Positions 38,644-64,000 of a stretch of 64,000 nt of DNA are shown here, in pieces. Numbering within the stretch: the first letter of the stretch is position 1; every line of letters begins with the position of its first letter. A program made the translations under genes and the position numbers. The DNA is from Phytopythium helicoides (lineage: Eukaryota; Oomycota; Peronosporomycetes; Pythiales; Pythiaceae). The stretch spans positions 1 to 64,000 of the forward strand of contig JANFNE010000077.1 of the NCBI GenBank assembly GCA_024867545.1, given 5' to 3'. Below the pieces are notes generated by a model. That model was not told the DNA's origin and made no database searches. It worked only from the letters and a program-made list of their open reading frames with translations.

Positions 38644-38951
38644 GAACGACGCTCGTCATGTCGGATCCGAGACCGATATCCGAGCAAAGAAAGTGCAATA
38701 CCGATGCAAGAGGCGAGCGATCAATGCGATGGTCAATTACGGATAGGAGAAGAAGGATAGGATGAGTAGGATGAAGAAGGGACGAGGGTGAAGCAATGAT
38801 GATGATATTGAGAGCGATAGAGAATAGAGAATAGAGAATGGATTGTGTAGATTGTCGAGTATGTAAGGAGCAGCAAAAGGAAAGAATAAAAGTGGCAAGT
38901 GGATCGGTGGAAAGAAAGAGGAAGAGAGGAAAGGAAGGAAAGAAGAAGGAA

Positions 38952-39024
38952 CTCTCCCAGCTGGGTTTGAACCAGCGACCTTGTGGTTAACAGCCACACG
39001 CTCTACCAACTGAGCTATAGGAGA
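38952..39024 (-). tRNA. tRNA-Asn(GUU), unit 1
   Basis: The 73-nt cloverleaf is complete without an intron: 7-bp acceptor (TCTCCTA/TGGGAGA, with one T-G pair at 6-67), 4-bp D stem (GCTC/GAGC), 5-bp anticodon stem (TGTGG/CCACA) around loop CTGTTAA with anticodon GTT, 5-nt variable loop, 5-bp T stem (GCTGG/CCAGC) with loop TTCAAAC, discriminator G73. The CCA is not encoded. The Pol III A box (TAGCTCAGTTGG) and B box (GGTTCAAACCC) are canonical. The 5' flank of this copy has catcacc where all other units have catcgcc. Confidence 0.97.
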
Positions 39025-39654
39025 CCACATCACCAACCACAAACACACAAACAACACATACTTGCCAACAAACACACGCCAACAAAAAACAAACACACAC
39101 TACACATACCATACAAACACACACACATTCACACACTACAAACAACACACTTACACAATTATACCATTCTTACCATCACACCAATCATGCACACACAACA
39201 AACAACACACAACAAACAACTCACACAAATCACACAACTACACTCCCCACCAGACCTCCGTGTCCAAACGAACAAAAACGAGACGCATGGACGGCAAGAT
39301 ACTATGCATTATGGACGAGGACATCTGGAACCCTAGATGAAATCTAGAACGACGCTCGTCATGTCGGATCCGAGACCGATATCCGAGCAAAGAAAGTGCA
39401 ATACCGATGCAAGAGGCGAGCGATCAATGCGATGGTCAATTACGGATAGGAGAAGAAGGATAGGATGAGTAGGATGAAGAAGGGACGAGGGTGAAGCAAT
39501 GATGATGATATTGAGAGCGATAGAGAATAGAGAATAGAGAATGGATTGTGTAGATTGTCGAGTATGTAAGGAGCAGCAAAAGGAAAGAATAAAAGTGGCA
39601 AGTGGATCGGTGGAAAGAAAGAGGAAGAGAGGAAAGGAAGGAAAGAAGAAGGAA

Positions 39655-39727
39655 CTCTCCCAGCTGGGTTTGAACCAGCGACCTTGTGGTTAACAGCCAC
39701 ACGCTCTACCAACTGAGCTATAGGAGA
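39655..39727 (-). tRNA. tRNA-Asn(GUU), unit 2
   Basis: Same 73 nt as unit 1. First unit of the standard 722-bp length; used as the reference for positions in the findings. Confidence 0.97.
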
Positions 39728-40376
39728 CCACATCGCCAACCACAAACACACAAACAACACATACTTGCCAACAAACACACGCCAACAAAAAACAAACACA
39801 CACTACACATACCATACAAACACACACACATTCACACACTACAAACAACACACAAACACACAAACAACACACTTACACAATTATACCATTCTTACCATCA
39901 CACCAATCATGCACACACAACAAACAACACACAACAAACAACTCACACAAATCACACAACTACACTCCCCACCAGACCTCCGTGTCCAAACGAACAAAAA
40001 CGAGACGCATGGACGGCAAGATACTATGCATTATGGACGAGGACATCTGGAACCCTAGATGAAATCTAGAACGACGCTCGTCATGTCGGATCCGAGACCG
40101 ATATCCGAGCAAAGAAAGTGCAATACCGATGCAAGAGGCGAGCGATCAATGCGATGGTCAATTACGGATAGGAGAAGAAGGATAGGATGAGTAGGATGAA
40201 GAAGGGACGAGGGTGAAGCAATGATGATGATATTGAGAGCGATAGAGAATAGAGAATAGAGAATGGATTGTGTAGATTGTCGAGTATGTAAGGAGCAGCA
40301 AAAGGAAAGAATAAAAGTGGCAAGTGGATCGGTGGAAAGAAAGAGGAAGAGAGGAAAGGAAGGAAAGAAGAAGGAA

Positions 40377-40449
40377 CTCTCCCAGCTGGGTTTGAACCAG
40401 CGACCTTGTGGTTAACAGCCACACGCTCTACCAACTGAGCTATAGGAGA
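40377..40449 (-). tRNA. tRNA-Asn(GUU), unit 3
   Basis: Same 73 nt as unit 1; unit 40069-40790. Confidence 0.97.
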
Positions 40450-41098
40450 CCACATCGCCAACCACAAACACACAAACAACACATACTTGCCAACAAACAC
40501 ACGCCAACAAAAAACAAACACACACTACACATACCATACAAACACACACACATTCACACACTACAAACAACACACAAACACACAAACAACACACTTACAC
40601 AATTATACCATTCTTACCATCACACCAATCATGCACACACAACAAACAACACACAACAAACAACTCACACAAATCACACAACTACACTCCCCACCAGACC
40701 TCCGTGTCCAAACGAACAAAAACGAGACGCATGGACGGCAAGATACTATGCATTATGGACGAGGACATCTGGAACCCTAGATGAAATCTAGAACGACGCT
40801 CGTCATGTCGGATCCGAGACCGATATCCGAGCAAAGAAAGTGCAATACCGATGCAAGAGGCGAGCGATCAATGCGATGGTCGATTACGGATAGGAGAAGA
40901 AGGATAGGATGAGTAGGATGAAGAAGGGACGAGGGTGAAGCAATGATGATGATATTGAGAGCGATAGAGAATAGAGAATAGAGAATGGATTGTGTAGATT
41001 GTCGAGTATGTAAGGAGCAGCAAAAGGAAAGAATAAAAGTGGCAAGTGGATCGGTGGAAAGAAAGAGGAAGAGAGGAAAGGAAGGAAAGAAGAAGGAA

Positions 41099-41171
41099 CT
41101 CTCCCAGCTGGGTTTGAACCAGCGACCTTGTGGTTAACAGCCACACGTTCTACCAACTGAGCTATAGGAGA
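41099..41171 (-). tRNA. tRNA-Asn(GUU), unit 4, D-stem variant
   Basis: One substitution at 41148 (plus strand c to t) changes tRNA position 24 from G to A, so the C11-G24 pair of the D stem becomes a C-A mismatch. The anticodon, A box and B box are unchanged. This is the only copy in the window with a changed tRNA sequence; it may be impaired in folding. Confidence 0.9.
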
Positions 41172-41820
41172 CCACATCGCCAACCACAAACACACAAACA
41201 ACACATACTTGCCAACAAACACACGCCAACAAAAAACAAACACACACTACACATACCATACAAACACACACACATTCACACACTACAAACAACACACAAA
41301 CACACAAACAACACACTTACACAATTATACCATTCTTACCATCACACCAATCATGCACACACAACAAACAACACACAACAAACAACTCACACAAATCACA
41401 CAACTACACTCCCCACCAGACCTCCGTGTCCAAACGAACAAAAACGAGACGCATGGACGGCAAGATACTATGCATTATGGACGAGGACATCTGGAACCCT
41501 AGATGAAATCTAGAACGACGCTCGTCATGTCGGATCCGAGACCGATATCCGAGCAAAGAAAGTGCAATACCGATGCAAGAGGCGAGCGATCAATGCGATG
41601 GTCAATTACGGATAGGAGAAGAAGGATAGGATGAGTAGGATGAAGAAGGGACGAGGGTGAAGCAATGATGATGATATTGAGAGCGATAGAGAATAGAGAA
41701 TAGAGAATGGATTGTGTAGATTGTCGAGTATGTAAGGAGCAGCAAAAGGAAAGAATAAAAGTGGCAAGTGGATCGGTGGAAAGAAAGAGGAAGAGAGGAA
41801 AGGAAGGAAAGAAGAAGGAA

Positions 41821-41893
41821 CTCTCCCAGCTGGGTTTGAACCAGCGACCTTGTGGTTAACAGCCACACGCTCTACCAACTGAGCTATAGGAGA
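41821..41893 (-). tRNA. tRNA-Asn(GUU), unit 5
   Basis: Same 73 nt as unit 1; unit 41513-42234. Confidence 0.97.
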
Positions 41894-42542
41894 CCACATC
41901 GCCAACCACAAACACACAAACAACACATACTTGCCAACAAACACACGCCAACAAAAAACAAACACACACTACACATACCATACAAACACACACACATTCA
42001 CACACTACAAACAACACACAAACACACAAACAACACACTTACACAATTATACCATTCTTACCATCACACCAATCATGCACACACAACAAACAACACACAA
42101 CAAACAACTCACACAAATCACACAACTACACTCCCCACCAGACCTCCGTGTCCAAACGAACAAAAACGAGACGCATGGACGGCAAGATACTATGCATTAT
42201 GGACGAGGACATCTGGAACCCTAGATGAAATCTAGAACGACGCTCGTCATGTCGGATCCGAGACCGATATCCGAGCAAAGAAAGTGCAATACCGATGCAA
42301 GAGGCGAGCGATCAATGCGATGGTCAATTACGGATAGGAGAAGAAGGATAGGATGAGTAGGATGAAGAAGGGACGAGGGTGAAGCAATGATGATGATATT
42401 GAGAGCGATAGAGAATAGAGAATAGAGAATGGATTGTGTAGATTGTCGAGTATGTAAGGAGCAGCAAAAGGAAAGAATAAAAGTGGCAAGTGGATCGGTG
42501 GAAAGAAAGAGGAAGAGAGGAAAGGAAGGAAAGAAGAAGGAA

Positions 42543-42615
42543 CTCTCCCAGCTGGGTTTGAACCAGCGACCTTGTGGTTAACAGCCACACGCTCTACCAA
42601 CTGAGCTATAGGAGA
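42543..42615 (-). tRNA. tRNA-Asn(GUU), unit 6
   Basis: Same 73 nt as unit 1; unit 42235-42956. Confidence 0.97.
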
Positions 42616-43264
42616 CCACATCGCCAACCACAAACACACAAACAACACATACTTGCCAACAAACACACGCCAACAAAAAACAAACACACACTACACATAC
42701 CATACAAACACACACACATTCACACACTACAAACAACACACAAACACACAAACAACACACTTACACAATTATACCATTCTTACCATCACACCAATCATGC
42801 ACACACAACAAACAACACACAACAAACAACTCACACAAATCACACAACTACACTCCCCACCAGACCTCCGTGTCCAAACGAACAAAAACGAGACGCATGG
42901 ACGGCAAGATACTATGCATTATGGACGAGGACATCTGGAACCCTAGATGAAATCTAGAACGACGCTCGTCATGTCGGATCCGAGACCGATATCCGAGCAA
43001 AGAAAGTGCAATACCGATGCAAGAGGCGAGCGATCAATGCGATGGTCGATTACGGATAGGAGAAGAAGGATAGGATGAGTAGGATGAAGAAGGGACGAGG
43101 GTGAAGCAATGATGATGATATTGAGAGCGATAGAGAATAGAGAATAGAGAATGGATTGTGTAGATTGTCGAGTATGTAAGGAGCAGCAAAAGGAAAGAAT
43201 AAAAGTGGCAAGTGGATCGGTGGAAAGAAAGAGGAAGAGAGGAAAGGAAGGAAAGAAGAAGGAA

Positions 43265-43337
43265 CTCTCCCAGCTGGGTTTGAACCAGCGACCTTGTGGT
43301 TAACAGCCACACGCTCTACCAACTGAGCTATAGGAGA
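43265..43337 (-). tRNA. tRNA-Asn(GUU), unit 7
   Basis: Same 73 nt as unit 1; the unit carries the a-to-g variant at offset 91 (43048). Confidence 0.97.
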
Positions 43338-43984
43338 CCACATCGCCAACCACAAACACACAAACAACACATACTTGCCAACAAACACACGCCAACAAAA
43401 AACAAACACACACTACACATACCATACAAACACACACACATTCACACACTACAAACAACACACAAACACACAAACAACACACTTACACAATTATACCATT
43501 CTTACCATCACACCAATCATGCACACACAACAAACAACACACAACAAACAACTCACACAAATCACACAACTACACTCCCCACCAGACCTCCGTGTCCAAA
43601 CGAACAAAAACGAGACGCATGGACGGCAAGATACTATGCATTATGGACGAGGACATCTGGAACCCTAGATGAAATCTAGAACGACGCTCGTCATGTCGGA
43701 TCCGAGACCGATATCCGAGCAAAGAAAGTGCAATACCGATGCAAGAGGCGAGCGATCAATGCGATGGTCGATTACGGATAAGAGAAGAAGGATAGGATGA
43801 GTAGGATGAAGAAGGGACGAGGGTGAAGCAATGATGGATATTGAGAGCGATAGAGAATAGAGAATAGAGAATGGATTGTGTAGATTGTCGAGTATGTAAG
43901 GAGCAGCAAAAGGAAAGAATAAAAGTGGCAAGTGGATCGGTGGAAAGAAAGAGGAAGAGAGGAAAGGAAGGAAAGAAGAAGGAA

Positions 43985-44057
43985 CTCTCCCAGCTGGGTT
44001 TGAACCAGCGACCTTGTGGTTAACAGCCACACGCTCTACCAACTGAGCTATAGGAGA
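43985..44057 (-). tRNA. tRNA-Asn(GUU), unit 8
   Basis: Same 73 nt as unit 1, inside the most diverged unit (43679-44406, 728 bp: 2-bp deletion left of the gene, 8-bp insertion in the ACA-rich part and several substitutions). Confidence 0.97.
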
Positions 44058-44714
44058 CCACATCGCCAACCACAAACACACAAACAACACATACTTGCCA
44101 ACAAACACACGCCAACAAAAAACAAACACACACTACACATACCATACAAACACACACACATTCATACACTACAAACAACACACAAACACACAAACACACA
44201 AACAACACACTTACACAATTATACCATTCTTACCATCACATCAATCATGCACACACAACAAACAACACACAACAAACAACTCACACAAATCACACAACTA
44301 CACTCCCCACCAGACCTCCGTGTCCAAACGAACAAAAACGAGACGCATGGACGGCAAGATACTATGCATTATGGACGAGGACATCTGGAACCCTAGATGA
44401 AATCTAGAACGACGCTCGTCATGTCGGATCCGAGACCGATATCCGAGCAAAGAAAGTGCAATACCGATGCAAGAGGCGAGCGATCAATGCGATGGTCAAT
44501 TACGGATAGGAGAAGAAGGATAGGATGAGTAGGATGAAGAAGGGACGAGGGTGAAGCAATGATGATGATATTGAGAGCGATAGAGAATAGAGAATAGAGA
44601 ATGGATTGTGTAGATTGTCGAGTATGTAAGGAGCAGCAAAAGGAAAGAATAAAAGTGGCAAGTGGATCGGTGGAAAGAAAGAGGAAGAGAGGAAAGGAAG
44701 GAAAGAAGAAGGAA

Positions 44715-44787
44715 CTCTCCCAGCTGGGTTTGAACCAGCGACCTTGTGGTTAACAGCCACACGCTCTACCAACTGAGCTATAGGAGA
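44715..44787 (-). tRNA. tRNA-Asn(GUU), unit 9
   Basis: Same 73 nt as unit 1; unit 44407-45128. Confidence 0.97.
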
Positions 44788-45436
44788 CCACATCGCCAAC
44801 CACAAACACACAAACAACACATACTTGCCAACAAACACACGCCAACAAAAAACAAACACACACTACACATACCATACAAACACACACACATTCACACACT
44901 ACAAACAACACACAAACACACAAACAACACACTTACACAATTATACCATTCTTACCATCACACCAATCATGCACACACAACAAACAACACACAACAAACA
45001 ACTCACACAAATCACACAACTACACTCCCCACCAGACCTCCGTGTCCAAACGAACAAAAACGAGACGCATGGACGGCAAGATACTATGCATTATGGACGA
45101 GGACATCTGGAACCCTAGATGAAATCTAGAACGACGCTCGTCATGTCGGATCCGAGACCGATATCCGAGCAAAGAAAGTGCAATACCGATGCAAGAGGCG
45201 AGCGATCAATGCGATGGTCAATTACGGATAGGAGAAGAAGGATAGGATGAGTAGGATGAAGAAGGGACGAGGGTGAAGCAATGATGATGATATTGAGAGC
45301 GATAGAGAATAGAGAATAGAGAATGGATTGTGTAGATTGTCGAGTATGTAAGGAGCAGCAAAAGGAAAGAATAAAAGTGGCAAGTGGATCGGTGGAAAGA
45401 AAGAGGAAGAGAGGAAAGGAAGGAAAGAAGAAGGAA

Positions 45437-45509
45437 CTCTCCCAGCTGGGTTTGAACCAGCGACCTTGTGGTTAACAGCCACACGCTCTACCAACTGAGC
45501 TATAGGAGA
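45437..45509 (-). tRNA. tRNA-Asn(GUU), unit 10
   Basis: Same 73 nt as unit 1; unit 45129-45850. Confidence 0.97.
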
Positions 45510-46158
45510 CCACATCGCCAACCACAAACACACAAACAACACATACTTGCCAACAAACACACGCCAACAAAAAACAAACACACACTACACATACCATACA
45601 AACACACACACATTCACACACTACAAACAACACACAAACACACAAACAACACACTTACACAATTATACCATTCTTACCATCACACCAATCATGCACACAC
45701 AACAAACAACACACAACAAACAACTCACACAAATCACACAACTACACTCCCCACCAGACCTCCGTGTCCAAACGAACAAAAACGAGACGCATGGACGGCA
45801 AGATACTATGCATTATGGACGAGGACATCTGGAACCCTAGATGAAATCTAGAACGACGCTCGTCATGTCGGATCCGAGACCGATATCCGAGCAAAGAAAG
45901 TGCAATACCGATGCAAGAGGCGAGCGATCAATGCGATGGTCAATTACGGATAGGAGAAGAAGGATAGGATGAGTAGGATGAAGAAGGGACGAGGGTGAAG
46001 CAATGATGATGATATTGAGAGCGATAGAGAATAGAGAATAGAGAATGGATTGTGTAGATTGTCGAGTATGTAAGGAGCAGCAAAAGGAAAGAATAAAAGT
46101 GGCAAGTGGATCGGTGGAAAGAAAGAGGAAGAGAGGAAAGGAAGGAAAGAAGAAGGAA

Positions 46159-46231
46159 CTCTCCCAGCTGGGTTTGAACCAGCGACCTTGTGGTTAACAG
46201 CCACACGCTCTACCAACTGAGCTATAGGAGA
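46159..46231 (-). tRNA. tRNA-Asn(GUU), unit 11
   Basis: Same 73 nt as unit 1; unit 45851-46572. Confidence 0.97.
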
Positions 46232-46880
46232 CCACATCGCCAACCACAAACACACAAACAACACATACTTGCCAACAAACACACGCCAACAAAAAACAAA
46301 CACACACTACACATACCATACAAACACACACACATTCACACACTACAAACAACACACAAACACACAAACAACACACTTACACAATTATACCATTCTTACC
46401 ATCACACCAATCATGCACACACAACAAACAACACACAACAAACAACTCACACAAATCACACAACTACACTCCCCACCAGACCTCCGTGTCCAAACGAACA
46501 AAAACGAGACGCATGGACGGCAAGATACTATGCATTATGGACGAGGACATCTGGAACCCTAGATGAAATCTAGAACGACGCTCGTCATGTCGGATCCGAG
46601 ACCGATATCCGAGCAAAGAAAGTGCAATACCGATGCAAGAGGCGAGCGATCAATGCGATGGTCAATTACGGATAGGAGAAGAAGGATAGGATGAGTAGGA
46701 TGAAGAAGGGACGAGGGTGAAGCAATGATGATGATATTGAGAGCGATAGAGAATAGAGAATAGAGAATGGATTGTGTAGATTGTCGAGTATGTAAGGAGC
46801 AGCAAAAGGAAAGAATAAAAGTGGCAAGTGGATCGGTGGAAAGAAAGAGGAAGAGAGGAAAGGAAGGAAAGAAGAAGGAA

Positions 46881-46953
46881 CTCTCCCAGCTGGGTTTGAA
46901 CCAGCGACCTTGTGGTTAACAGCCACACGCTCTACCAACTGAGCTATAGGAGA
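46881..46953 (-). tRNA. tRNA-Asn(GUU), unit 12
   Basis: Same 73 nt as unit 1; unit 46573-47294. Confidence 0.97.
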
Positions 46954-47602
46954 CCACATCGCCAACCACAAACACACAAACAACACATACTTGCCAACAA
47001 ACACACGCCAACAAAAAACAAACACACACTACACATACCATACAAACACACACACATTCACACACTACAAACAACACACAAACACACAAACAACACACTT
47101 ACACAATTATACCATTCTTACCATCACACCAATCATGCACACACAACAAACAACACACAACAAACAACTCACACAAATCACACAACTACACTCCCCACCA
47201 GACCTCCGTGTCCAAACGAACAAAAACGAGACGCATGGACGGCAAGATACTATGCATTATGGACGAGGACATCTGGAACCCTAGATGAAATCTAGAACGA
47301 CGCTCGTCATGTCGGATCCGAGACCGATATCCGAGCAAAGAAAGTGCAATACCGATGCAAGAGGCGAGCGATCAATGCGATGGTCAATTACGGATAGGAG
47401 AAGAAGGATAGGATGAGTAGGATGAAGAAGGGACGAGGGTGAAGCAATGATGATGATATTGAGAGCGATAGAGAATAGAGAATAGAGAATGGATTGTGTA
47501 GATTGTCGAGTATGTAAGGAGCAGCAAAAGGAAAGAATAAAAGTGGCAAGTGGATCGGTGGAAAGAAAGAGGAAGAGAGGAAAGGAAGGAAAGAAGAAGG
47601 AA

Positions 47603-47675
47603 CTCTCCCAGCTGGGTTTGAACCAGCGACCTTGTGGTTAACAGCCACACGCTCTACCAACTGAGCTATAGGAGA
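47603..47675 (-). tRNA. tRNA-Asn(GUU), unit 13
   Basis: Same 73 nt as unit 1; unit 47295-48016. Confidence 0.97.
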
Positions 47676-48324
47676 CCACATCGCCAACCACAAACACACA
47701 AACAACACATACTTGCCAACAAACACACGCCAACAAAAAACAAACACACACTACACATACCATACAAACACACACACATTCACACACTACAAACAACACA
47801 CAAACACACAAACAACACACTTACACAATTATACCATTCTTACCATCACACCAATCATGCACACACAACAAACAACACACAACAAACAACTCACACAAAT
47901 CACACAACTACACTCCCCACCAGACCTCCGTGTCCAAACGAACAAAAACGAGACGCATGGACGGCAAGATACTATGCATTATGGACGAGGACATCTGGAA
48001 CCCTAGATGAAATCTAGAACGACGCTCGTCATGTCGGATCCGAGACCGATATCCGAGCAAAGAAAGTGCAATACCGATGCAAGAGGCGAGCGATCAATGC
48101 GATGGTCAATTACGGATAGGAGAAGAAGGATAGGATGAGTAGGATGAAGAAGGGACGAGGGTGAAGCAATGATGATGATATTGAGAGCGATAGAGAATAG
48201 AGAATAGAGAATGGATTGTGTAGATTGTCGAGTATGTAAGGAGCAGCAAAAGGAAAGAATAAAAGTGGCAAGTGGATCGGTGGAAAGAAAGAGGAAGAGA
48301 GGAAAGGAAGGAAAGAAGAAGGAA

Positions 48325-48397
48325 CTCTCCCAGCTGGGTTTGAACCAGCGACCTTGTGGTTAACAGCCACACGCTCTACCAACTGAGCTATAGGAGA
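48325..48397 (-). tRNA. tRNA-Asn(GUU), unit 14
   Basis: Same 73 nt as unit 1; unit 48017-48738. Confidence 0.97.
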
Positions 48398-49046
48398 CCA
48401 CATCGCCAACCACAAACACACAAACAACACATACTTGCCAACAAACACACGCCAACAAAAAACAAACACACACTACACATACCATACAAACACACACACA
48501 TTCACACACTACAAACAACACACAAACACACAAACAACACACTTACACAATTATACCATTCTTACCATCACACCAATCATGCACACACAACAAACAACAC
48601 ACAACAAACAACTCACACAAATCACACAACTACACTCCCCACCAGACCTCCGTGTCCAAACGAACAAAAACGAGACGCATGGACGGCAAGATACTATGCA
48701 TTATGGACGAGGACATCTGGAACCCTAGATGAAATCTAGAACGACGCTCGTCATGTCGGATCCGAGACCGATATCCGAGCAAAGAAAGTGCAATACCGAT
48801 GCAAGAGGCGAGCGATCAATGCGATGGTCAATTACGGATAGGAGAAGAAGGATAGGATGAGTAGGATGAAGAAGGGACGAGGGTGAAGCAATGATGATGA
48901 TATTGAGAGCGATAGAGAATAGAGAATAGAGAATGGATTGTGTAGATTGTCGAGTATGTAAGGAGCAGCAAAAGGAAAGAATAAAAGTGGCAAGTGGATC
49001 GGTGGAAAGAAAGAGGAAGAGAGGAAAGGAAGGAAAGAAGAAGGAA

Positions 49047-49119
49047 CTCTCCCAGCTGGGTTTGAACCAGCGACCTTGTGGTTAACAGCCACACGCTCTA
49101 CCAACTGAGCTATAGGAGA
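49047..49119 (-). tRNA. tRNA-Asn(GUU), unit 15
   Basis: Same 73 nt as unit 1; unit 48739-49460. Confidence 0.97.
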
Positions 49120-49768
49120 CCACATCGCCAACCACAAACACACAAACAACACATACTTGCCAACAAACACACGCCAACAAAAAACAAACACACACTACAC
49201 ATACCATACAAACACACACACATTCACACACTACAAACAACACACAAACACACAAACAACACACTTACACAATTATACCATTCTTACCATCACACCAATC
49301 ATGCACACACAACAAACAACACACAACAAACAACTCACACAAATCACACAACTACACTCCCCACCAGACCTCCGTGTCCAAACGAACAAAAACGAGACGC
49401 ATGGACGGCAAGATACTATGCATTATGGACGAGGACATCTGGAACCCTAGATGAAATCTAGAACGACGCTCGTCATGTCGGATCCGAGACCGATATCCGA
49501 GCAAAGAAAGTGCAATACCGATGCAAGAGGCGAGCGATCAATGCGATGGTCAATTACGGATAGGAGAAGAAGGATAGGATGAGTAGGATGAAGAAGGGAC
49601 GAGGGTGAAGCAATGATGATGATATTGAGAGCGATAGAGAATAGAGAATAGAGAATGGATTGTGTAGATTGTCGAGTATGTAAGGAGCAGCAAAAGGAAA
49701 GAATAAAAGTGGCAAGTGGATCGGTGGAAAGAAAGAGGAAGAGAGGAAAGGAAGGAAAGAAGAAGGAA

Positions 49769-49841
49769 CTCTCCCAGCTGGGTTTGAACCAGCGACCTTG
49801 TGGTTAACAGCCACACGCTCTACCAACTGAGCTATAGGAGA
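49769..49841 (-). tRNA. tRNA-Asn(GUU), unit 16
   Basis: Same 73 nt as unit 1; unit 49461-50182. Confidence 0.97.
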
Positions 49842-50490
49842 CCACATCGCCAACCACAAACACACAAACAACACATACTTGCCAACAAACACACGCCAAC
49901 AAAAAACAAACACACACTACACATACCATACAAACACACACACATTCACACACTACAAACAACACACAAACACACAAACAACACACTTACACAATTATAC
50001 CATTCTTACCATCACACCAATCATGCACACACAACAAACAACACACAACAAACAACTCACACAAATCACACAACTACACTCCCCACCAGACCTCCGTGTC
50101 CAAACGAACAAAAACGAGACGCATGGACGGCAAGATACTATGCATTATGGACGAGGACATCTGGAACCCTAGATGAAATCTAGAACGACGCTCGTCATGT
50201 CGGATCCGAGACCGATATCCGAGCAAAGAAAGTGCAATACCGATGCAAGAGGCGAGCGATCAATGCGATGGTCAATTACGGATAGGAGAAGAAGGATAGG
50301 ATGAGTAGGATGAAGAAGGGACGAGGGTGAAGCAATGATGATGATATTGAGAGCGATAGAGAATAGAGAATAGAGAATGGATTGTGTAGATTGTCGAGTA
50401 TGTAAGGAGCAGCAAAAGGAAAGAATAAAAGTGGCAAGTGGATCGGTGGAAAGAAAGAGGAAGAGAGGAAAGGAAGGAAAGAAGAAGGAA

Positions 50491-50563
50491 CTCTCCCAGC
50501 TGGGTTTGAACCAGCGACCTTGTGGTTAACAGCCACACGCTCTACCAACTGAGCTATAGGAGA
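50491..50563 (-). tRNA. tRNA-Asn(GUU), unit 17
   Basis: Same 73 nt as unit 1; unit 50183-50904. Confidence 0.97.
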
Positions 50564-52007: not shown

Positions 52008-52656
52008 CCACATCGCCAACCACAAACACACAAACAACACATACTTGCCAACAAACACACGCCAACAAAAAACAAACACACACTACACATACCATACAAA
52101 CACACACACATTCACACACTACAAACAACACACAAACACACAAACAACACACTTACACAATTATACCATTCTTACCATCACACCAATCATGCACACACAA
52201 CAAACAACACACAACAAACAACTCACACAAATCACACAACTACACTCCCCACTAGACCTCCGTGTCCAAACGAACAAAAACGAGACGCATGGACGGCAAG
52301 ATACTATGCATTATGGACGAGGACATCTGGAACCCTAGATGAAATCTAGAACGACGCTCGTCATGTCGGATCCGAGACCGATATCCGAGCAAAGAAAGTG
52401 CAATACCGATGCAAGAGGCGAGCGATCAATGCGATGGTCAATTACGGATAGGAGAAGAAGGATAGGATGAGTAGGATGAAGAAGGGACGAGGGTGAAGCA
52501 ATGATGATGATATTGAGAGCGATAGAGAATAGAGAATAGAGAATGGATTGTGTAGATTGTCGAGTATGTAAGGAGCAGCAAAAGGAAAGAATAAAAGTGG
52601 CAAGTGGATCGGTGGAAAGAAAGAGGAAGAGAGGAAAGGAAGGAAAGAAGAAGGAA

Positions 52657-52729
52657 CTCTCCCAGCTGGGTTTGAACCAGCGACCTTGTGGTTAACAGCC
52701 ACACGCTCTACCAACTGAGCTATAGGAGA
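52657..52729 (-). tRNA. tRNA-Asn(GUU), unit 20
   Basis: Same 73 nt as unit 1; unit 52349-53070. Confidence 0.97.
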
Positions 52730-53378
52730 CCACATCGCCAACCACAAACACACAAACAACACATACTTGCCAACAAACACACGCCAACAAAAAACAAACA
52801 CACACTACACATACCATACAAACACACACACATTCACACACTACAAACAACACACAAACACACAAACAACACACTTACACAATTATACCATTCTTACCAT
52901 CACACCAATCATGCACACACAACAAACAACACACAACAAACAACTCACACAAATCACACAACTACACTCCCCACCAGACCTCCGTGTCCAAACGAACAAA
53001 AACGAGACGCATGGACGGCAAGATACTATGCATTATGGACGAGGACATCTGGAACCCTAGATGAAATCTAGAACGACGCTCGTCATGTCGGATCCGAGAC
53101 CGATATCCGAGCAAAGAAAGTGCAATACCGATGCAAGAGGCGAGCGATCAATGCGATGGTCAATTACGGATAGGAGAAGAAGGATAGGATGAGTAGGATG
53201 AAGAAGGGACGAGGGTGAAGCAATGATGATGATATTGAGAGCGATAGAGAATAGAGAATAGAGAATGGATTGTGTAGATTGTCGAGTATGTAAGGAGCAG
53301 CAAAAGGAAATAATAAAAGTGGCAAGTGGATCGGTGGAAAGAAAGAGGAAGAGAGGAAAGGAAGGAAAGAAGAAGGAA

Positions 53379-53451
53379 CTCTCCCAGCTGGGTTTGAACC
53401 AGCGACCTTGTGGTTAACAGCCACACGCTCTACCAACTGAGCTATAGGAGA
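53379..53451 (-). tRNA. tRNA-Asn(GUU), unit 21
   Basis: Same 73 nt as unit 1; the unit has a private g-to-t at 53311, 3' of the gene. Confidence 0.97.
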
Positions 53452-54100
53452 CCACATCGCCAACCACAAACACACAAACAACACATACTTGCCAACAAAC
53501 ACACGCCAACAAAAAACAAACACACACTACACATACCATACAAACACACACACATTCACACACTACAAACAACACACAAACACACAAACAACACACTTAC
53601 ACAATTATACCATTCTTACCATCACACCAATCATGCACACACAACAAACAACACACAACAAACAACTCACACAAATCACACAACTACACTCCCCACCAGA
53701 CCTCCGTGTCCAAACGAACAAAAACGAGACGCATGGACGGCAAGATACTATGCATTATGGACGAGGACATCTGGAACCCTAGATGAAATCTAGAACGACG
53801 CTCGTCATGTCGGATCCGAGACCGATATCCGAGCAAAGAAAGTGCAATACCGATGCAAGAGGCGAGCGATCAATGCGATGGTCAATTACGGATAGGAGAA
53901 GAAGGATAGGATGAGTAGGATGAAGAAGGGACGAGGGTGAAGCAATGATGATGATATTGAGAGCGATAGAGAATAGAGAATAGAGAATGGATTGTGTAGA
54001 TTGTCGAGTATGTAAGGAGCAGCAAAAGGAAAGAATAAAAGTGGCAAGTGGATCGGTGGAAAGAAAGAGGAAGAGAGGAAAGGAAGGAAAGAAGAAGGAA

Positions 54101-54173
54101 CTCTCCCAGCTGGGTTTGAACCAGCGACCTTGTGGTTAACAGCCACACGCTCTACCAACTGAGCTATAGGAGA
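54101..54173 (-). tRNA. tRNA-Asn(GUU), unit 22
   Basis: Same 73 nt as unit 1; unit 53793-54514. Confidence 0.97.
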
Positions 54174-54822
54174 CCACATCGCCAACCACAAACACACAAA
54201 CAACACATACTTGCCAACAAACACACGCCAACAAAAAACAAACACACACTACACATACCATACAAACACACACACATTCACACACTACAAACAACACACA
54301 AACACACAAACAACACACTTACACAATTATACCATTCTTACCATCACACCAATCATGCACACACAACAAACAACACACAACAAACAACTCACACAAATCA
54401 CACAACTACACTCCCCACCAGACCTCCGTGTCCAAACGAACAAAAACGAGACGCATGGACGGCAAGATACTATGCATTATGGACGAGGACATCTGGAACC
54501 CTAGATGAAATCTAGAACGACGCTCGTCATGTCGGATCCGAGACCGATATCCGAGCAAAGAAAGTGCAATACCGATGCAAGAGGCGAGCGATCAATGCGA
54601 TGGTCAATTACGGATAGGAGAAGAAGGATAGGATGAGTAGGATGAAGAAGGGACGAGGGTGAAGCAATGATGATGATATTGAGAGCGATAGAGAATAGAG
54701 AATAGAGAATGGATTGTGTAGATTGTCGAGTATGTAAGGAGCAGCAAAAGGAAAGAATAAAAGTGGCAGGTGGATCGGTGGAAAGAAAGAGGAAGAGAGG
54801 AAAGGAAGGAAAGAAGAAGGAA

Positions 54823-54895
54823 CTCTCCCAGCTGGGTTTGAACCAGCGACCTTGTGGTTAACAGCCACACGCTCTACCAACTGAGCTATAGGAGA
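54823..54895 (-). tRNA. tRNA-Asn(GUU), unit 23
   Basis: Same 73 nt as unit 1; the unit carries the a-to-g variant at offset 254 (54769). Confidence 0.97.
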
Positions 54896-55544
54896 CCACA
54901 TCGCCAACCACAAACACACAAACAACACATACTTGCCAACAAACACACGCCAACAAAAAACAAACACACACTACACATACCATACAAACACACACACATT
55001 CACACACTACAAACAACACACAAACACACAAACAACACACTTACACAATTATACCATTCTTACCATCACACCAATCATGCACACACAACAAACAACACAC
55101 AACAAACAACTCACACAAATCACACAACTACACTCCCCACCAGACCTCCGTGTCCAAACGAACAAAAACGAGACGCATGGACGGCAAGATACTATGCATT
55201 ATGGACGAGGACATCTGGAACCCTAGATGAAATCTAGAACGACGCTCGTCATGTCGGATCCGAGACCGATATCCGAGCAAAGAAAGTGCAATACCGATGC
55301 AAGAGGCGAGCGATCAATGCGATGGTCAATTACGGATAGGAGAAGAAGGATAGGATGAGTAGGATGAAGAAGGGACGAGGGTGAAGCAATGATGATGATA
55401 TTGAGAGCGATAGAGAATAGAGAATAGAGAATGGATTGTGTAGATTGTCGAGTATGTAAGGAGCAGCAAAAGGAAAGAATAAAAGTGGCAGGTGGATCGG
55501 TGGAAAGAAAGAGGAAGAGAGGAAAGGAAGGAAAGAAGAAGGAA

Positions 55545-55617
55545 CTCTCCCAGCTGGGTTTGAACCAGCGACCTTGTGGTTAACAGCCACACGCTCTACC
55601 AACTGAGCTATAGGAGA
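55545..55617 (-). tRNA. tRNA-Asn(GUU), unit 24
   Basis: Same 73 nt as unit 1; offset-254 variant present (55491). Confidence 0.97.
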
Positions 55618-56266
55618 CCACATCGCCAACCACAAACACACAAACAACACATACTTGCCAACAAACACACGCCAACAAAAAACAAACACACACTACACAT
55701 ACCATACAAACACACACACATTCACACACTACAAACAACACACAAACACACAAACAACACACTTACACAATTATACCATTCTTACCATCACACCAATCAT
55801 GCACACACAACAAACAACACACAACAAACAACTCACACAAATCACACAACTACACTCCCCACCAGACCTCCGTGTCCAAACGAACAAAAACGAGACGCAT
55901 GGACGGCAAGATACTATGCATTATGGACGAGGACATCTGGAACCCTAGATGAAATCTAGAACGACGCTCGTCATGTCGGATCCGAGACCGATATCCGAGC
56001 AAAGAAAGTGCAATACCGATGCAAGAGGCGAGCGATCAATGCGATGGTCAATTACGGATAGGAGAAGAAGGATAGGATGAGTAGGATGAAGAAGGGACGA
56101 GGGTGAAGCAATGATGATGATATTGAGAGCGATAGAGAATAGAGAATAGAGAATGGATTGTGTAGATTGTCGAGTATGTAAGGAGCAGCAAAAGGAAAGA
56201 ATAAAAGTGGCAAGTGGATCGGTGGAAAGAAAGAGGAAGAGAGGAAAGGAAGGAAAGAAGAAGGAA

Positions 56267-56339
56267 CTCTCCCAGCTGGGTTTGAACCAGCGACCTTGTG
56301 GTTAACAGCCACACGCTCTACCAACTGAGCTATAGGAGA
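56267..56339 (-). tRNA. tRNA-Asn(GUU), unit 25
   Basis: Same 73 nt as unit 1; unit with the consensus base at offset 254. Confidence 0.97.
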
Positions 56340-56988
56340 CCACATCGCCAACCACAAACACACAAACAACACATACTTGCCAACAAACACACGCCAACAA
56401 AAAACAAACACACACTACACATACCATACAAACACACACACATTCACACACTACAAACAACACACAAACACACAAACAACACACTTACACAATTATACCA
56501 TTCTTACCATCACACCAATCATGCACACACAACAAACAACACACAACAAACAACTCACACAAATCACACAACTACACTCCCCACCAGACCTCCGTGTCCA
56601 AACGAACAAAAACGAGACGCATGGACGGCAAGATACTATGCATTATGGACGAGGACATCTGGAACCCTAGATGAAATCTAGAACGACGCTCGTCATGTCG
56701 GATCCGAGACCGATATCCGAGCAAAGAAAGTGCAATACCGATGCAAGAGGCGAGCGATCAATGCGATGGTCAATTACGGATAGGAGAAGAAGGATAGGAT
56801 GAGTAGGATGAAGAAGGGACGAGGGTGAAGCAATGATGATGATATTGAGAGCGATAGAGAATAGAGAATAGAGAATGGATTGTGTAGATTGTCGAGTATG
56901 TAAGGAGCAGCAAAAGGAAAGAATAAAAGTGGCAGGTGGATCGGTGGAAAGAAAGAGGAAGAGAGGAAAGGAAGGAAAGAAGAAGGAA

Positions 56989-57061
56989 CTCTCCCAGCTG
57001 GGTTTGAACCAGCGACCTTGTGGTTAACAGCCACACGCTCTACCAACTGAGCTATAGGAGA
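56989..57061 (-). tRNA. tRNA-Asn(GUU), unit 26
   Basis: Same 73 nt as unit 1; offset-254 variant present (56935). Confidence 0.97.
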
Positions 57062-57710
57062 CCACATCGCCAACCACAAACACACAAACAACACATACTT
57101 GCCAACAAACACACGCCAACAAAAAACAAACACACACTACACATACCATACAAACACACACACATTCACACACTACAAACAACACACAAACACACAAACA
57201 ACACACTTACACAATTATACCATTCTTACCATCACACCAATCATGCACACACAACAAACAACACACAACAAACAACTCACACAAATCACACAACTACACT
57301 CCCCACCAGACCTCCGTGTCCAAACGAACAAAAACGAGACGCATGGACGGCAAGATACTATGCATTATGGACGAGGACATCTGGAACCCTAGATGAAATC
57401 TAGAACGACGCTCGTCATGTCGGATCCGAGACCGATATCCGAGCAAAGAAAGTGCAATACCGATGCAAGAGGCGAGCGATCAATGCGATGGTCAATTACG
57501 GATAGGAGAAGAAGGATAGGATGAGTAGGATGAAGAAGGGACGAGGGTGAAGCAATGATGATGATATTGAGAGCGATAGAGAATAGAGAATAGAGAATGG
57601 ATTGTGTAGATTGTCGAGTATGTAAGGAGCAGCAAAAGGAAAGAATAAAAGTGGCAGGTGGATCGGTGGAAAGAAAGAGGAAGAGAGGAAAGGAAGGAAA
57701 GAAGAAGGAA

Positions 57711-57783
57711 CTCTCCCAGCTGGGTTTGAACCAGCGACCTTGTGGTTAACAGCCACACGCTCTACCAACTGAGCTATAGGAGA
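57711..57783 (-). tRNA. tRNA-Asn(GUU), unit 27
   Basis: Same 73 nt as unit 1; offset-254 variant present (57657). Confidence 0.97.
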
Positions 57784-58432
57784 CCACATCGCCAACCACA
57801 AACACACAAACAACACATACTTGCCAACAAACACACGCCAACAAAAAACAAACACACACTACACATACCATACAAACACACACACATTCACACACTACAA
57901 ACAACACACAAACACACAAACAACACACTTACACAATTATACCATTCTTACCATCACACCAATCATGCACACACAACAAACAACACACAACAAACAACTC
58001 ACACAAATCACACAACTACACTCCCCACCAGACCTCCGTGTCCAAACGAACAAAAACGAGACGCATGGACGGCAAGATACTATGCATTATGGACGAGGAC
58101 ATCTGGAACCCTAGATGAAATCTAGAACGACGCTCGTCATGTCGGATCCGAGACCGATATCCGAGCAAAGAAAGTGCAATACCGATGCAAGAGGCGAGCG
58201 ATCAATGCGATGGTCAATTACGGATAGGAGAAGAAGGATAGGATGAGTAGGATGAAGAAGGGACGAGGGTGAAGCAATGATGATGATATTGAGAGCGATA
58301 GAGAATAGAGAATAGAGAATGGATTGTGTAGATTGTCGAGTATGTAAGGAGCAGCAAAAGGAAAGAATAAAAGTGGCAGGTGGATCGGTGGAAAGAAAGA
58401 GGAAGAGAGGAAAGGAAGGAAAGAAGAAGGAA

Positions 58433-58505
58433 CTCTCCCAGCTGGGTTTGAACCAGCGACCTTGTGGTTAACAGCCACACGCTCTACCAACTGAGCTATA
58501 GGAGA
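58433..58505 (-). tRNA. tRNA-Asn(GUU), unit 28
   Basis: Same 73 nt as unit 1; offset-254 variant present (58379). Confidence 0.97.
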
Positions 58506-59154
58506 CCACATCGCCAACCACAAACACACAAACAACACATACTTGCCAACAAACACACGCCAACAAAAAACAAACACACACTACACATACCATACAAACA
58601 CACACACATTCACACACTACAAACAACACACAAACACACAAACAACACACTTACACAATTATACCATTCTTACCATCACACCAATCATGCACACACAACA
58701 AACAACACACAACAAACAACTCACACAAATCACACAACTACACTCCCCACCAGACCTCCGTGTCCAAACGAACAAAAACGAGACGCATGGACGGCAAGAT
58801 ACTATGCATTATGGACGAGGACATCTGGAACCCTAGATGAAATCTAGAACGACGCTCGTCATGTCGGATCCGAGACCGATATCCGAGCAAAGAAAGTGCA
58901 ATACCGATGCAAGAGGCGAGCGATCAATGCGATGGTCAATTACGGATAGGAGAAGAAGGATAGGATGAGTAGGATGAAGAAGGGACGAGGGTGAAGCAAT
59001 GATGATGATATTGAGAGCGATAGAGAATAGAGAATAGAGAATGGATTGTGTAGATTGTCGAGTATGTAAGGAGCAGCAAAAGGAAAGAATAAAAGTGGCA
59101 AGTGGATCGGTGGAAAGAAAGAGGAAGAGAGGAAAGGAAGGAAAGAAGAAGGAA

Positions 59155-59227
59155 CTCTCCCAGCTGGGTTTGAACCAGCGACCTTGTGGTTAACAGCCAC
59201 ACGCTCTACCAACTGAGCTATAGGAGA
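59155..59227 (-). tRNA. tRNA-Asn(GUU), unit 29
   Basis: Same 73 nt as unit 1; unit with the consensus base at offset 254. Confidence 0.97.
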
Positions 59228-59876
59228 CCACATCGCCAACCACAAACACACAAACAACACATACTTGCCAACAAACACACGCCAACAAAAAACAAACACA
59301 CACTACACATACCATACAAACACACACACATTCACACACTACAAACAACACACAAACACACAAACAACACACTTACACAATTATACCATTCTTACCATCA
59401 CACCAATCATGCACACACAACAAACAACACACAACAAACAACTCACACAAATCACACAACTACACTCCCCACCAGACCTCCGTGTCCAAACGAACAAAAA
59501 CGAGACGCATGGACGGCAAGATACTATGCATTATGGACGAGGACATCTGGAACCCTAGATGAAATCTAGAACGACGCTCGTCATGTCGGATCCGAGACCG
59601 ATATCCGAGCAAAGAAAGTGCAATACCGATGCAAGAGGCGAGCGATCAATGCGATGGTCAATTACGGATAGGAGAAGAAGGATAGGATGAGTAGGATGAA
59701 GAAGGGACGAGGGTGAAGCAATGATGATGATATTGAGAGCGATAGAGAATAGAGAATAGAGAATGGATTGTGTAGATTGTCGAGTATGTAAGGAGCAGCA
59801 AAAGGAAAGAATAAAAGTGGCAGGTGGATCGGTGGAAAGAAAGAGGAAGAGAGGAAAGGAAGGAAAGAAGAAGGAA

Positions 59877-59949
59877 CTCTCCCAGCTGGGTTTGAACCAG
59901 CGACCTTGTGGTTAACAGCCACACGCTCTACCAACTGAGCTATAGGAGA
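59877..59949 (-). tRNA. tRNA-Asn(GUU), unit 30
   Basis: Same 73 nt as unit 1; offset-254 variant present (59823). Confidence 0.97.
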
Positions 59950-60598
59950 CCACATCGCCAACCACAAACACACAAACAACACATACTTGCCAACAAACAC
60001 ACGCCAACAAAAAACAAACACACACTACACATACCATACAAACACACACACATTCACACACTACAAACAACACACAAACACACAAACAACACACTTACAC
60101 AATTATACCATTCTTACCATCACACCAATCATGCACACACAACAAACAACACACAACAAACAACTCACACAAATCACACAACTACACTCCCCACCAGACC
60201 TCCGTGTCCAAACGAACAAAAACGAGACGCATGGACGGCAAGATACTATGCATTATGGACGAGGACATCTGGAACCCTAGATGAAATCTAGAACGACGCT
60301 CGTCATGTCGGATCCGAGACCGATATCCGAGCAAAGAAAGTGCAATACCGATGCAAGAGGCGAGCGATCAATGCGATGGTCAATTACGGATAGGAGAAGA
60401 AGGATAGGATGAGTAGGATGAAGAAGGGACGAGGGTGAAGCAATGATGATGATATTGAGAGCGATAGAGAATAGAGAATAGAGAATGGATTGTGTAGATT
60501 GTCGAGTATGTAAGGAGCAGCAAAAGGAAAGAATAAAAGTGGCAAGTGGATCGGTGGAAAGAAAGAGGAAGAGAGGAAAGGAAGGAAAGAAGAAGGAA

Positions 60599-60671
60599 CT
60601 CTCCCAGCTGGGTTTGAACCAGCGACCTTGTGGTTAACAGCCACACGCTCTACCAACTGAGCTATAGGAGA
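60599..60671 (-). tRNA. tRNA-Asn(GUU), unit 31
   Basis: Same 73 nt as unit 1; the 708-bp unit lacks 14 bp of the ACA-rich part near 60866. Confidence 0.97.
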
Positions 60672-61306
60672 CCACATCGCCAACCACAAACACACAAACA
60701 ACACATACTTGCCAACAAACACACGCCAACAAAAAACAAACACACACTACACATACCATACAAACACACACACATTCACACACTACAAACAACACACAAA
60801 CACACAAACAACACACTTACACAATTATACCATTCTTACCATCACACCAATCATGCACACACAACAAACAACTCACACAAATCACACAACTACACTCCCC
60901 ACCAGACCTCCGTGTCCAAACGAACAAAAACGAGACGCATGGACGGCAAGATACTATGCATTATGGACGAGGACATCTGGAACCCTAGATGAAATCTAGA
61001 ACGACGCTCGTCATGTCGGATCCGAGACCGATATCCGAGCAAAGAAAGTGCAATACCGATGCAAGAGGCGAGCGATCAATGCGATGGTCAATTACGGATA
61101 GGAGAAGAAGGATAGGATGAGTAGGATGAAGAAGGGACGAGGGTGAAGCAATGATGATGATATTGAGAGCGATAGAGAATAGAGAATAGAGAATGGATTG
61201 TGTAGATTGTCGAGTATGTAAGGAGCAGCAAAAGGAAAGAATAAAAGTGGCAAGTGGATCGGTGGAAAGAAAGAGGAAGAGAGGAAAGGAAGGAAAGAAG
61301 AAGGAA

Positions 61307-61379
61307 CTCTCCCAGCTGGGTTTGAACCAGCGACCTTGTGGTTAACAGCCACACGCTCTACCAACTGAGCTATAGGAGA
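61307..61379 (-). tRNA. tRNA-Asn(GUU), unit 32
   Basis: Same 73 nt as unit 1; unit 60999-61720. Confidence 0.97.
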
Positions 61380-62028
61380 CCACATCGCCAACCACAAACA
61401 CACAAACAACACATACTTGCCAACAAACACACGCCAACAAAAAACAAACACACACTACACATACCATACAAACACACACACATTCACACACTACAAACAA
61501 CACACAAACACACAAACAACACACTTACACAATTATACCATTCTTACCATCACACCAATCATGCACACACAACAAACAACACACAACAAACAACTCACAC
61601 AAATCACACAACTACACTCCCCACCAGACCTCCGTGTCCAAACGAACAAAAACGAGACGCATGGACGGCAAGATACTATGCATTATGGACGAGGACATCT
61701 GGAACCCTAGATGAAATCTAGAACGACGCTCGTCATGTCGGATCCGAGACCGATATCCGAGCAAAGAAAGTGCAATACCGATGCAAGAGGCGAGCGATCA
61801 ATGCGATGGTCAATTACGGATAGGAGAAGAAGGATAGGATGAGTAGGATGAAGAAGGGACGAGGGTGAAGCAATGATGATGATATTGAGAGCGATAGAGA
61901 ATAGAGAATAGAGAATGGATTGTGTAGATTGTCGAGTATGTAAGGAGCAGCAAAAGGAAAGAATAAAAGTGGCAAGTGGATCGGTGGAAAGAAAGAGGAA
62001 GAGAGGAAAGGAAGGAAAGAAGAAGGAA

Positions 62029-62101
62029 CTCTCCCAGCTGGGTTTGAACCAGCGACCTTGTGGTTAACAGCCACACGCTCTACCAACTGAGCTATAGGAG
62101 A
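62029..62101 (-). tRNA. tRNA-Asn(GUU), unit 33
   Basis: Same 73 nt as unit 1; unit 61721-62442. Confidence 0.97.
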
Positions 62102-62750
62102 CCACATCGCCAACCACAAACACACAAACAACACATACTTGCCAACAAACACACGCCAACAAAAAACAAACACACACTACACATACCATACAAACACACA
62201 CACATTCACACACTACAAACAACACACAAACACACAAACAACACACTTACACAATTATACCATTCTTACCATCACACCAATCATGCACACACAACAAACA
62301 ACACACAACAAACAACTCACACAAATCACACAACTACACTCCCCACCAGACCTCCGTGTCCAAACGAACAAAAACGAGACGCATGGACGGCAAGATACTA
62401 TGCATTATGGACGAGGACATCTGGAACCCTAGATGAAATCTAGAACGACGCTCGTCATGTCGGATCCGAGACCGATATCCGAGCAAAGAAAGTGCAATAC
62501 CGATGCAAGAGGCGAGCGATCAATGCGATGGTCAATTACGGATAGGAGAAGAAGGATAGGATGAGTAGGATGAAGAAGGGACGAGGGTGAAGCAATGATG
62601 ATGATATTGAGAGCGATAGAGAATAGAGAATAGAGAATGGATTGTGTAGATTGTCGAGTATGTAAGGAGCAGCAAAAGGAAAGAATAAAAGTGGCAAGTG
62701 GATCGGTGGAAAGAAAGAGGAAGAGAGGAAAGGAAGGAAAGAAGAAGGAA

Positions 62751-62823
62751 CTCTCCCAGCTGGGTTTGAACCAGCGACCTTGTGGTTAACAGCCACACGC
62801 TCTACCAACTGAGCTATAGGAGA
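62751..62823 (-). tRNA. tRNA-Asn(GUU), unit 34
   Basis: Same 73 nt as unit 1; unit 62443-63164. Confidence 0.97.
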
Positions 62824-63472
62824 CCACATCGCCAACCACAAACACACAAACAACACATACTTGCCAACAAACACACGCCAACAAAAAACAAACACACACT
62901 ACACATACCATACAAACACACACACATTCACACACTACAAACAACACACAAACACACAAACAACACACTTACACAATTATACCATTCTTACCATCACACC
63001 AATCATGCACACACAACAAACAACACACAACAAACAACTCACACAAATCACACAACTACACTCCCCACCAGACCTCCGTGTCCAAACGAACAAAAACGAG
63101 ACGCATGGACGGCAAGATACTATGCATTATGGACGAGGACATCTGGAACCCTAGATGAAATCTAGAACGACGCTCGTCATGTCGGATCCGAGACCGATAT
63201 CCGAGCAAAGAAAGTGCAATACCGATGCAAGAGGCGAGCGATCAATGCGATGGTCGATTACGGATAGGAGAAGAAGGATAGGATGAGTAGGATGAAGAAG
63301 GGACGAGGGTGAAGCAATGATGATGATATTGAGAGCGATAGAGAATAGAGAATAGAGAATGGATTGTGTAGATTGTCGAGTATGTAAGGAGCAGCAAAAG
63401 GAAAGAATAAAAGTGGCAAGTGGATCGGTGGAAAGAAAGAGGAAGAGAGGAAAGGAAGGAAAGAAGAAGGAA

Positions 63473-63545
63473 CTCTCCCAGCTGGGTTTGAACCAGCGAC
63501 CTTGTGGTTAACAGCCACACGCTCTACCAACTGAGCTATAGGAGA
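63473..63545 (-). tRNA. tRNA-Asn(GUU), unit 35
   Basis: Same 73 nt as unit 1; last complete unit, with the offset-91 variant (63256). Unit 36 begins at 63887 and also has this variant (63978), but its tRNA lies beyond the window. Confidence 0.97.
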
Positions 63546-64000
63546 CCACATCGCCAACCACAAACACACAAACAACACATACTTGCCAACAAACACACGC
63601 CAACAAAAAACAAACACACACTACACATACCATACAAACACACACACATTCACACACTACAAACAACACACAAACACACAAACAACACACTTACACAATT
63701 ATACCATTCTTACCATCACACCAATCATGCACACACAACAAACAACACACAACAAACAACTCACACAAATCACACAACTACACTCCCCACCAGACCTCCG
63801 TGTCCAAACGAACAAAAACGAGACGCATGGACGGCAAGATACTATGCATTATGGACGAGGACATCTGGAACCCTAGATGAAATCTAGAACGACGCTCGTC
63901 ATGTCGGATCCGAGACCGATATCCGAGCAAAGAAAGTGCAATACCGATGCAAGAGGCGAGCGATCAATGCGATGGTCGATTACGGATAGGAGAAGAAGGA

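Follow-up and report, generated by a model that had tools for sequence, protein, structure and literature searches.

We examined a 64,000-bp window of DNA from Phytopythium helicoides, consisting of bases 1–64000 of contig JANFNE010000077.1 (86,355 bp; here C76) in assembly GCA_024867545.1, which holds 49,062,832 bases in 100 contigs. The right-hand part of the window is filled by a tandem array of transfer RNA (tRNA) genes for asparagine. ARAGORN called 35 complete tRNA-Asn(GTT) genes, the first at 38952–39024 and the last at 63473–63545, every one on the minus strand. Each lies above the Rfam threshold for family RF00005 (gathering score 29), with 71.3 bits in 34 genes and 62.5 bits in the other. 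The tRNA sequence is identical in 34 of the 35 copies, the gene at 41099–41171 carrying a single D-arm substitution. Units are spaced 722 bp apart with three exceptions (703, 728 and 708 bp). Among the 35 complete ones, 21 agree letter for letter, a regularity that is far beyond chance. An earlier note on this DNA had described at least 35 near-identical tRNA-Asn(GUU) genes in a head-to-tail 722-bp array on the minus strand, and both gene callers bear this out.

The array continues past the window, as that note had also held. In full it spans ~32.7 kb of C76, from 38,645 to ~71.4 kb, and comprises 45 complete units with one gene each; the ten genes outside the window likewise score above the Rfam tRNA threshold. 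A final piece of array without a tRNA gene is followed by other sequence from near 71.4 kb. Since the contig runs on to 86,355 bp, the assembly contains the whole array. For the representative gene at 40377–40449, folding predicts a cloverleaf-like structure in which all four arms are present (−25.9 kcal/mol, z −1.77). The internal A and B boxes of an RNA polymerase III (Pol III) promoter are present by sequence, in keeping with the promoter claimed earlier; the first TTTT downstream of the gene examined comes only after 60 nt. The longest ATG-initiated open reading frame (ORF) of the spacer has 97 aa. This falls within the lengths that Markov sequences give (mean 93, 5–95% 58–157), and a coding spacer was set aside on that ground.

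Table 1. Features of the window and tRNA arrays elsewhere in the assembly (C numbers denote contigs; coordinates without a contig are window positions).
Feature	Location	Strand	Remarks
tRNA-Asn(GTT) tandem array	38645..64000	-	35 complete 722-bp units and start of the next; on to ~71.4 kb, 45 units
Representative tRNA-Asn(GTT) gene	40377..40449	-	ARAGORN; RF00005 71.3 bits; 34/35 window copies the same
Sole window tRNA-Asn copy with a substitution (D arm)	41099..41171	-	RF00005 62.5 bits
GT-rich (coding strand) 120 bp upstream of tRNA-Asn gene	40450..40569	-	every unit; mean G+T 0.89, 45 copies
CT-rich (coding strand) 120 bp downstream of tRNA-Asn gene	40257..40376	-	every unit; mean C+T 0.82, 45 copies
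Transposase remains (DDE_1 and HTH_psq, two abutting open frames)	37189..38385	-	ends ~260 bp before the array
Thr(TGT) array	C57		
Lys(TTT) array	C14		
Leu(CAA) array	C14		separate from the Lys(TTT) array
Thr(CGT)-Ser(GCT)-Trp(CCA) trimer	C4		~113 kb; Trp gene on opposite strand
Arg(TCT) array	C10		
Gln(CTG)-Gln(TTG) dimer	C11		
Ala(AGC)-His(GTG) dimer	C25		two predicted genes abut
Tyr(GTA) arrays	C28 and C59		33-nt intron in anticodon arm
Leu(AAG) arrays	C33 and C61		
Gly(TCC)-Gly(CCC) dimer	C34		
Pro(CGG) array	C42		
Cys(GCA) array	C74		unit ~711 bp
Met(CAT) array	C6		
Ser(CGA) array	C3		abuts telomere repeats

The 45 units fall into 12 distinct types, 22 of them representing the modal unit, and differ pairwise by a mean of 0.18% in substitutions. 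G167C is carried by nine units, all inside units 36–45, a clustering equalled in 0 of 100,000 shuffles by either measure. A253G occurs in six units inside 23–30 (span P 6e-5, adjacency P 0.013) and A90G in 11 (units 4, 7, 8 and part of 35–45; adjacency P 0.008, span P 0.75). Such variant blocks are consistent with unequal exchange and conversion inside the array, and with the description of arrays in Phytophthora infestans (PMC9584435; here, as for the other papers cited, we draw on parts of the published text). Substitutions affect one site in the tRNA gene and ten in the spacer, roughly in proportion to length, so that purifying selection is not visible in the array.

These variants also bear on whether the array was inflated by the assembler from one unit or a short run of them. 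The identity of 22 of the 45 units would suit such an artefact, as would the suspicious contig C3, a fold-back-like palindrome with a damaged centre. Against it stand the private as well as block-wise shared variants, the three units of deviant length and the sequence on both sides of the array. Moreover, the left flank (31000–36500) matches the assembly over its full length once, alongside 47 short partial matches, and copy numbers of representative P. infestans families agreed with read depth (PMC9584435). We therefore hold an artefact to be highly improbable. A haplotig or duplicated locus was set aside on the single full-length match of the left flank, the only flank searched.

All tRNA-Asn genes found lie at this one chromosomal place. 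A 37-nt tRNA-Asn core, searched across the 49-Mb assembly with up to three mismatches, matched 45 times, always inside the C76 array, and a reversed-pattern control gave no match. In eukaryotes both Asn codons are normally read by the GUU anticodon. With no other copy found, the C76 locus would thus be the sole cytosolic source of tRNA-Asn, and it is apparently the sole source in the assembly. A supply matched to codon usage was set aside as an explanation, since the three window frames whose codons were counted are too small a sample for it.

An apparent sole source favours real tRNA genes over the reading applied to Peronospora effusa, in which 33–39 clusters per isolate, with ~99.6% of tRNA genes, are called similar to short interspersed nuclear elements (SINE-like; PMC11540230). 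Units of that kind would be tRNA-derived sequences expanding for themselves and not the cell's tRNA genes. The two species do resemble each other: each family lies at one place, units are about equally long (717 bp in P. effusa, 722 bp in P. helicoides) and near-identical, and exchange between copies is likewise proposed for P. effusa (PMC11540230). The transposase remains 260 bp from the array also fit a selfish origin. However, no tRNA-Asn was found outside the array, either as a further copy or as an alternative gene, the Rfam scores are those of full-length tRNAs, and arrays of other isotypes have P. infestans gene combinations (PMC9584435). The P. effusa clusters are linked to spacer ORFs (PMC11540230), whereas the Asn unit yielded none of these; its 97-aa frame lies within the Markov range and so gives no sign of them. 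We consider a SINE-like or selfish array improbable here; the failure of the core search to find tRNA-Asn anywhere else likewise makes the suggestion in the earlier note of a satellite that had captured a tRNA gene an unlikely one. The hallmarks of SINEs are dispersed copies with a 3′ tail and target-site duplications; no dispersed tRNA-Asn was found, and tails and duplications were judged by eye at the array edges.

The Asn array is one of at least 17 tRNA arrays in the assembly, which cover 20 anticodons and 15 amino acids. It had been taken for an isolated, single-tRNA oddity; the presence of at least 16 others comes close to what the same note had said would change its interpretation, similar arrays for every isoacceptor. 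Arrays for Asp, Glu, Ile, Phe and Val are not among the matches listed; these and further anticodons may exist. The located stretches sum to ~555 kb, at least 1.1% of the assembly, a figure that takes end coordinates from match listings, leaves several array ends unread and counts the whole of C3 even though half of it is possibly a fold-back. Stretches of C10 and C57 are N. Unlike Asn, Tyr and Leu(AAG) each have two arrays on different contigs. 5S ribosomal RNA (rRNA) matches, judged from the best 47 of 2394 candidates, lie on C56, C98 and C99, with one on C79; most form runs, spaced at 525 bp on C56, and no tRNA was seen in the 5S stretch inspected.

This organisation has precedents. On the chromosomes of P. 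infestans, ~64% of 7,519 tRNA genes lie in single-gene arrays and 36% in dimeric or trimeric ones (Matson et al. 2022, PMC9584435). Hence, large arrays in an oomycete are not the surprise they had been thought to be, as mono-, di- and trimeric arrays are published for P. infestans (PMC9584435) and P. effusa (PMC11540230). P. infestans and P. helicoides share long arrays of one, two or three tRNAs in near-identical units. Among the arrays named for P. infestans (Thr-Trp-Ser, Gln-Gln, Cys, Leu(AAG) and Val(AAC)-Ser(AGA)), the combinations Thr(CGT)-Trp(CCA)-Ser(GCT), Gln(CTG)-Gln(TTG), Cys(GCA) and Leu(AAG) recur in P. helicoides, whereas Val(AAC)-Ser(AGA) has no counterpart among the matches listed here (PMC9584435). 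The species differ in unit lengths and copy numbers, the Cys unit being 513 nt there and ~711 bp here, and P. infestans has far more genes (PMC9584435). Those parts of the P. infestans text give no example of an Asn array. The matching combinations place the Asn array within the known oomycete organisation, of which it is a new example.

That organisation also resembles the one in Entamoeba, and the earlier comparison with Entamoeba in style stands for this large oomycete array of a single isoacceptor. Almost all Entamoeba tRNA genes lie in tandem arrays with units of one to five genes, some low-copy genes being exceptions (Tawari et al. 2007, PMC2652664). Both have tandem tRNA arrays and arrayed 5S RNA. 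In Entamoeba, however, the arrays exceed 10% of the genome (at least 1.1% located here) and 5S lies inside some tRNA units (PMC2652664). The lineages are unrelated, the resemblance being one of organisation only, and P. helicoides has canonical telomeres. The Ser-Tyr-Tyr cluster of Arabidopsis also consists of tandem tRNA genes, but these are mostly silenced and redundant (PMC12308677), whereas no other tRNA-Asn was found in P. helicoides.

A telomeric function, an untested idea for the Entamoeba arrays, where no telomere repeats are known (PMC2652664), does not carry over. The Asn array is internal, with flanks of 38.6 kb and ~15 kb and no telomere repeat on C76, and TTTAGGG/CCCTAAA runs occur at 10 of the 40 contig ends inspected (the ends of C10, C11, C14 and C25 and the starts of C3, C19, C26, C27, C30 and C35). 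Both telomere replacement and a telomeric satellite were rejected for the Asn array on these grounds, as was the telomere-proximal position that had been proposed for it. The array might instead serve mainly in chromosome organisation, as insulator, pericentromere or nuclear anchor, with tRNA supply secondary. Yeast tRNA genes influence chromosome structure (cited in PMC9584435), and on the 81,602-bp contig C3 telomere repeats join the Ser(CGA) array directly, its ~615-bp units each containing a short stretch that resembles telomere repeats. Because this contig is a palindrome whose centre is damaged, the latter half of it is possibly a fold-back made in assembly. Beyond the internal position of the Asn array, no tRNA gene was seen at any of the nine other telomeric ends, inspected 2.4–2.7 kb inward, which have repeats in common; a primarily structural role is accordingly, in our judgement, a poor candidate. 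Arrays at the ends of C28, C33, C42 and C6 showed no telomere repeat in the parts inspected and may mark assembly breaks.

The number of tRNA genes was gauged through the B box. Two non-overlapping B-box patterns gave 1291 and 491 matches (79 and 101 in reversed-pattern controls), or ~1,600 sites above control, which is an estimate and not a gene count. A variant, GGTTCGACYCC, showed no excess (26 matches versus 39 in the control), nor did the MGGTTCGATCCC pattern (4 versus 3); the GGTTCGAACCC pattern matched 47 times versus 23, mostly on C74. Of 19 singleton B-box sites, two passed the Rfam threshold as tRNAs: one is tRNA-Sec at 71 bits, the other scores weakly at 41.8 bits. A further two (L096 and L098) were called by ARAGORN when introns were permitted, without support from Rfam. 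Intact Leu(TAG) genes occur outside arrays as inverted pairs with the same spacing on C22 and C39. Together with the two singletons, these pairs mean that dispersed tRNA genes exist, though apparently few in this sample. The tRNA-Sec gene lies on C15 and is the only one among the stretches inspected. On C1, at ~1182–1196 kb, four GGTTCAAGTCC sites lie ~4.5 kb apart, perhaps as another tandem repeat; no tRNA gene was seen in the 8 kb inspected.

We conclude that the array is probably, at roughly 80%, the working cytosolic tRNA-Asn(GUU) gene set of P. helicoides, held in one tandem multigene locus. This is supported by the confinement of all 45 core matches to the array, by genes of Rfam standard, by the 16 or more other tRNA arrays and those of 5S, by the P. 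infestans combinations, by the Tyr intron, by the scarcity of singleton tRNAs and by the block-wise variants. Of the interpretation first offered, the real, large array survives; its isolation, its novelty in an oomycete, its telomeric place and its selfish nature do not. The tRNA-Asn genes would be maintained in the manner of ribosomal DNA (rDNA) and 5S rDNA. With its internal A and B boxes, every 722-bp unit would amount to a complete Pol III gene. The copies would be kept alike, and free to drift in number, by gene conversion and unequal exchange among the units. Cytosolic insertion of asparagine would then depend on the C76 locus, although a large share of the copies may be superfluous or not expressed; that the genes are active at all is itself a prediction.

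Several points weigh against this conclusion. The core search is blind to any tRNA-Asn with more than three changes in the 37 nt or located in unassembled DNA, and the count of 45 copies is that of one assembly. A90G lies near both ends of the array (units 4, 7 and 8 at one of them) and has therefore spread beyond one simple block. No TTTT occurs within 60 nt downstream of the tRNA-Asn gene examined, leaving termination unexplained. Finally, the Leu(TAG) pairs are intact genes that do without an array. With one gene taken per array, the first TTTT follows at 0–14 nt in many types and at 35–60 nt in Leu(CAA), Lys and Asn, and was not found within 80 nt in Arg(TCT), Gln(TTG), His and Ala.

The conclusion that the Asn genes are working genes matters for two conflicting readings of oomycete arrays, as expanded tRNA gene families in P. 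infestans and as SINE-like repeats in P. effusa. With every findable tRNA-Asn in one array, and with combinations like those of P. infestans, the conflict becomes directly testable and real, essential genes are favoured. If the genes are real, masking such clusters as transposons strips most tRNA genes from an annotation.

The array genes have a flank design in common. On the coding strand the 120 bp upstream are GT-rich in all 22 array gene entries (mean 0.82, lowest 0.68), compared with 0.50 (standard deviation 0.055, 99th percentile 0.63) in random non-array stretches drawn from nine stretches. In the 120 bp downstream, C+T exceeds the 95th percentile of the control in 19 of the 22 entries, those of Thr(TGT), Arg(TCT) and Gln(TTG) being the exceptions. 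The bias turns with gene orientation, though array spacers mostly do not align. Several of these entries represent 1–4 genes, His and Ala each have the partner gene as one flank, and the two Tyr arrays are mutually related, as are the two Leu(AAG) arrays. 5S units have 0.78–0.79 upstream and a C+T of 0.59 downstream, just below the cut. The GT-rich stretch is absent from the single tRNA-Sec gene (0.58) and from four dispersed Leu(TAG) genes (0.52–0.58). On C36, a tRNA-like singleton that falls short of the Rfam threshold is GT-rich upstream by eye, which argues against a strict link to arrays. No such bias is mentioned in the published papers surveyed, judged by titles and abstract openings. 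Strand-asymmetric, structure-prone flanks might themselves cause Pol III genes to become or stay arrayed, either because they promote unit exchange or because they insulate transcription; essential tRNAs would in this way be drawn into arrays and into concerted evolution. We think this unlikely as it stands; the common design is nevertheless a concrete feature with which to test how tRNA arrays arise and persist.

When the 17 array stretches were compared by BLAST with tRNA genes included, long matches joined the arrays of the same isotype (Tyr–Tyr 75% over 981 bp, Leu–Leu 82% over 676 bp). Further matches were C4 with Ser(CGA) (73% over 237 bp), Asn with Tyr (70% over 183 bp) and some shorter ones, so the spacers are mostly, not wholly, unalike, and a common origin was set aside. 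The Tyr array on C28, which is related to that on C59, is broken by ~8 kb without Tyr genes.

Farther left of the Asn array than the transposase remains lie frames with bromodomain, PHD, WD40, trypsin-like, kinase and C2/EF-hand domains; two ORFs of the right flank matched no Pfam family above the cut-off. The named relatives of the 2077-aa C2/EF-hand protein are all from oomycetes apart from one Tribonema match, the best being from Nothophytophthora and Phytophthora (42–43% identity), and two metagenomic matches reach 70% and 55%. These named relatives, none of them close, identify the host as an oomycete.

On C25 (stretch L013, 4232–4379 and the following units) the Ala(AGC) and His(GTG) genes adjoin without a gap, which suggests a dimeric precursor. 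C89 (97,349 bp, GC 22%) is mitochondrial DNA, and its tRNA positions suggest a large inverted repeat in a ~64.8-kb unit.

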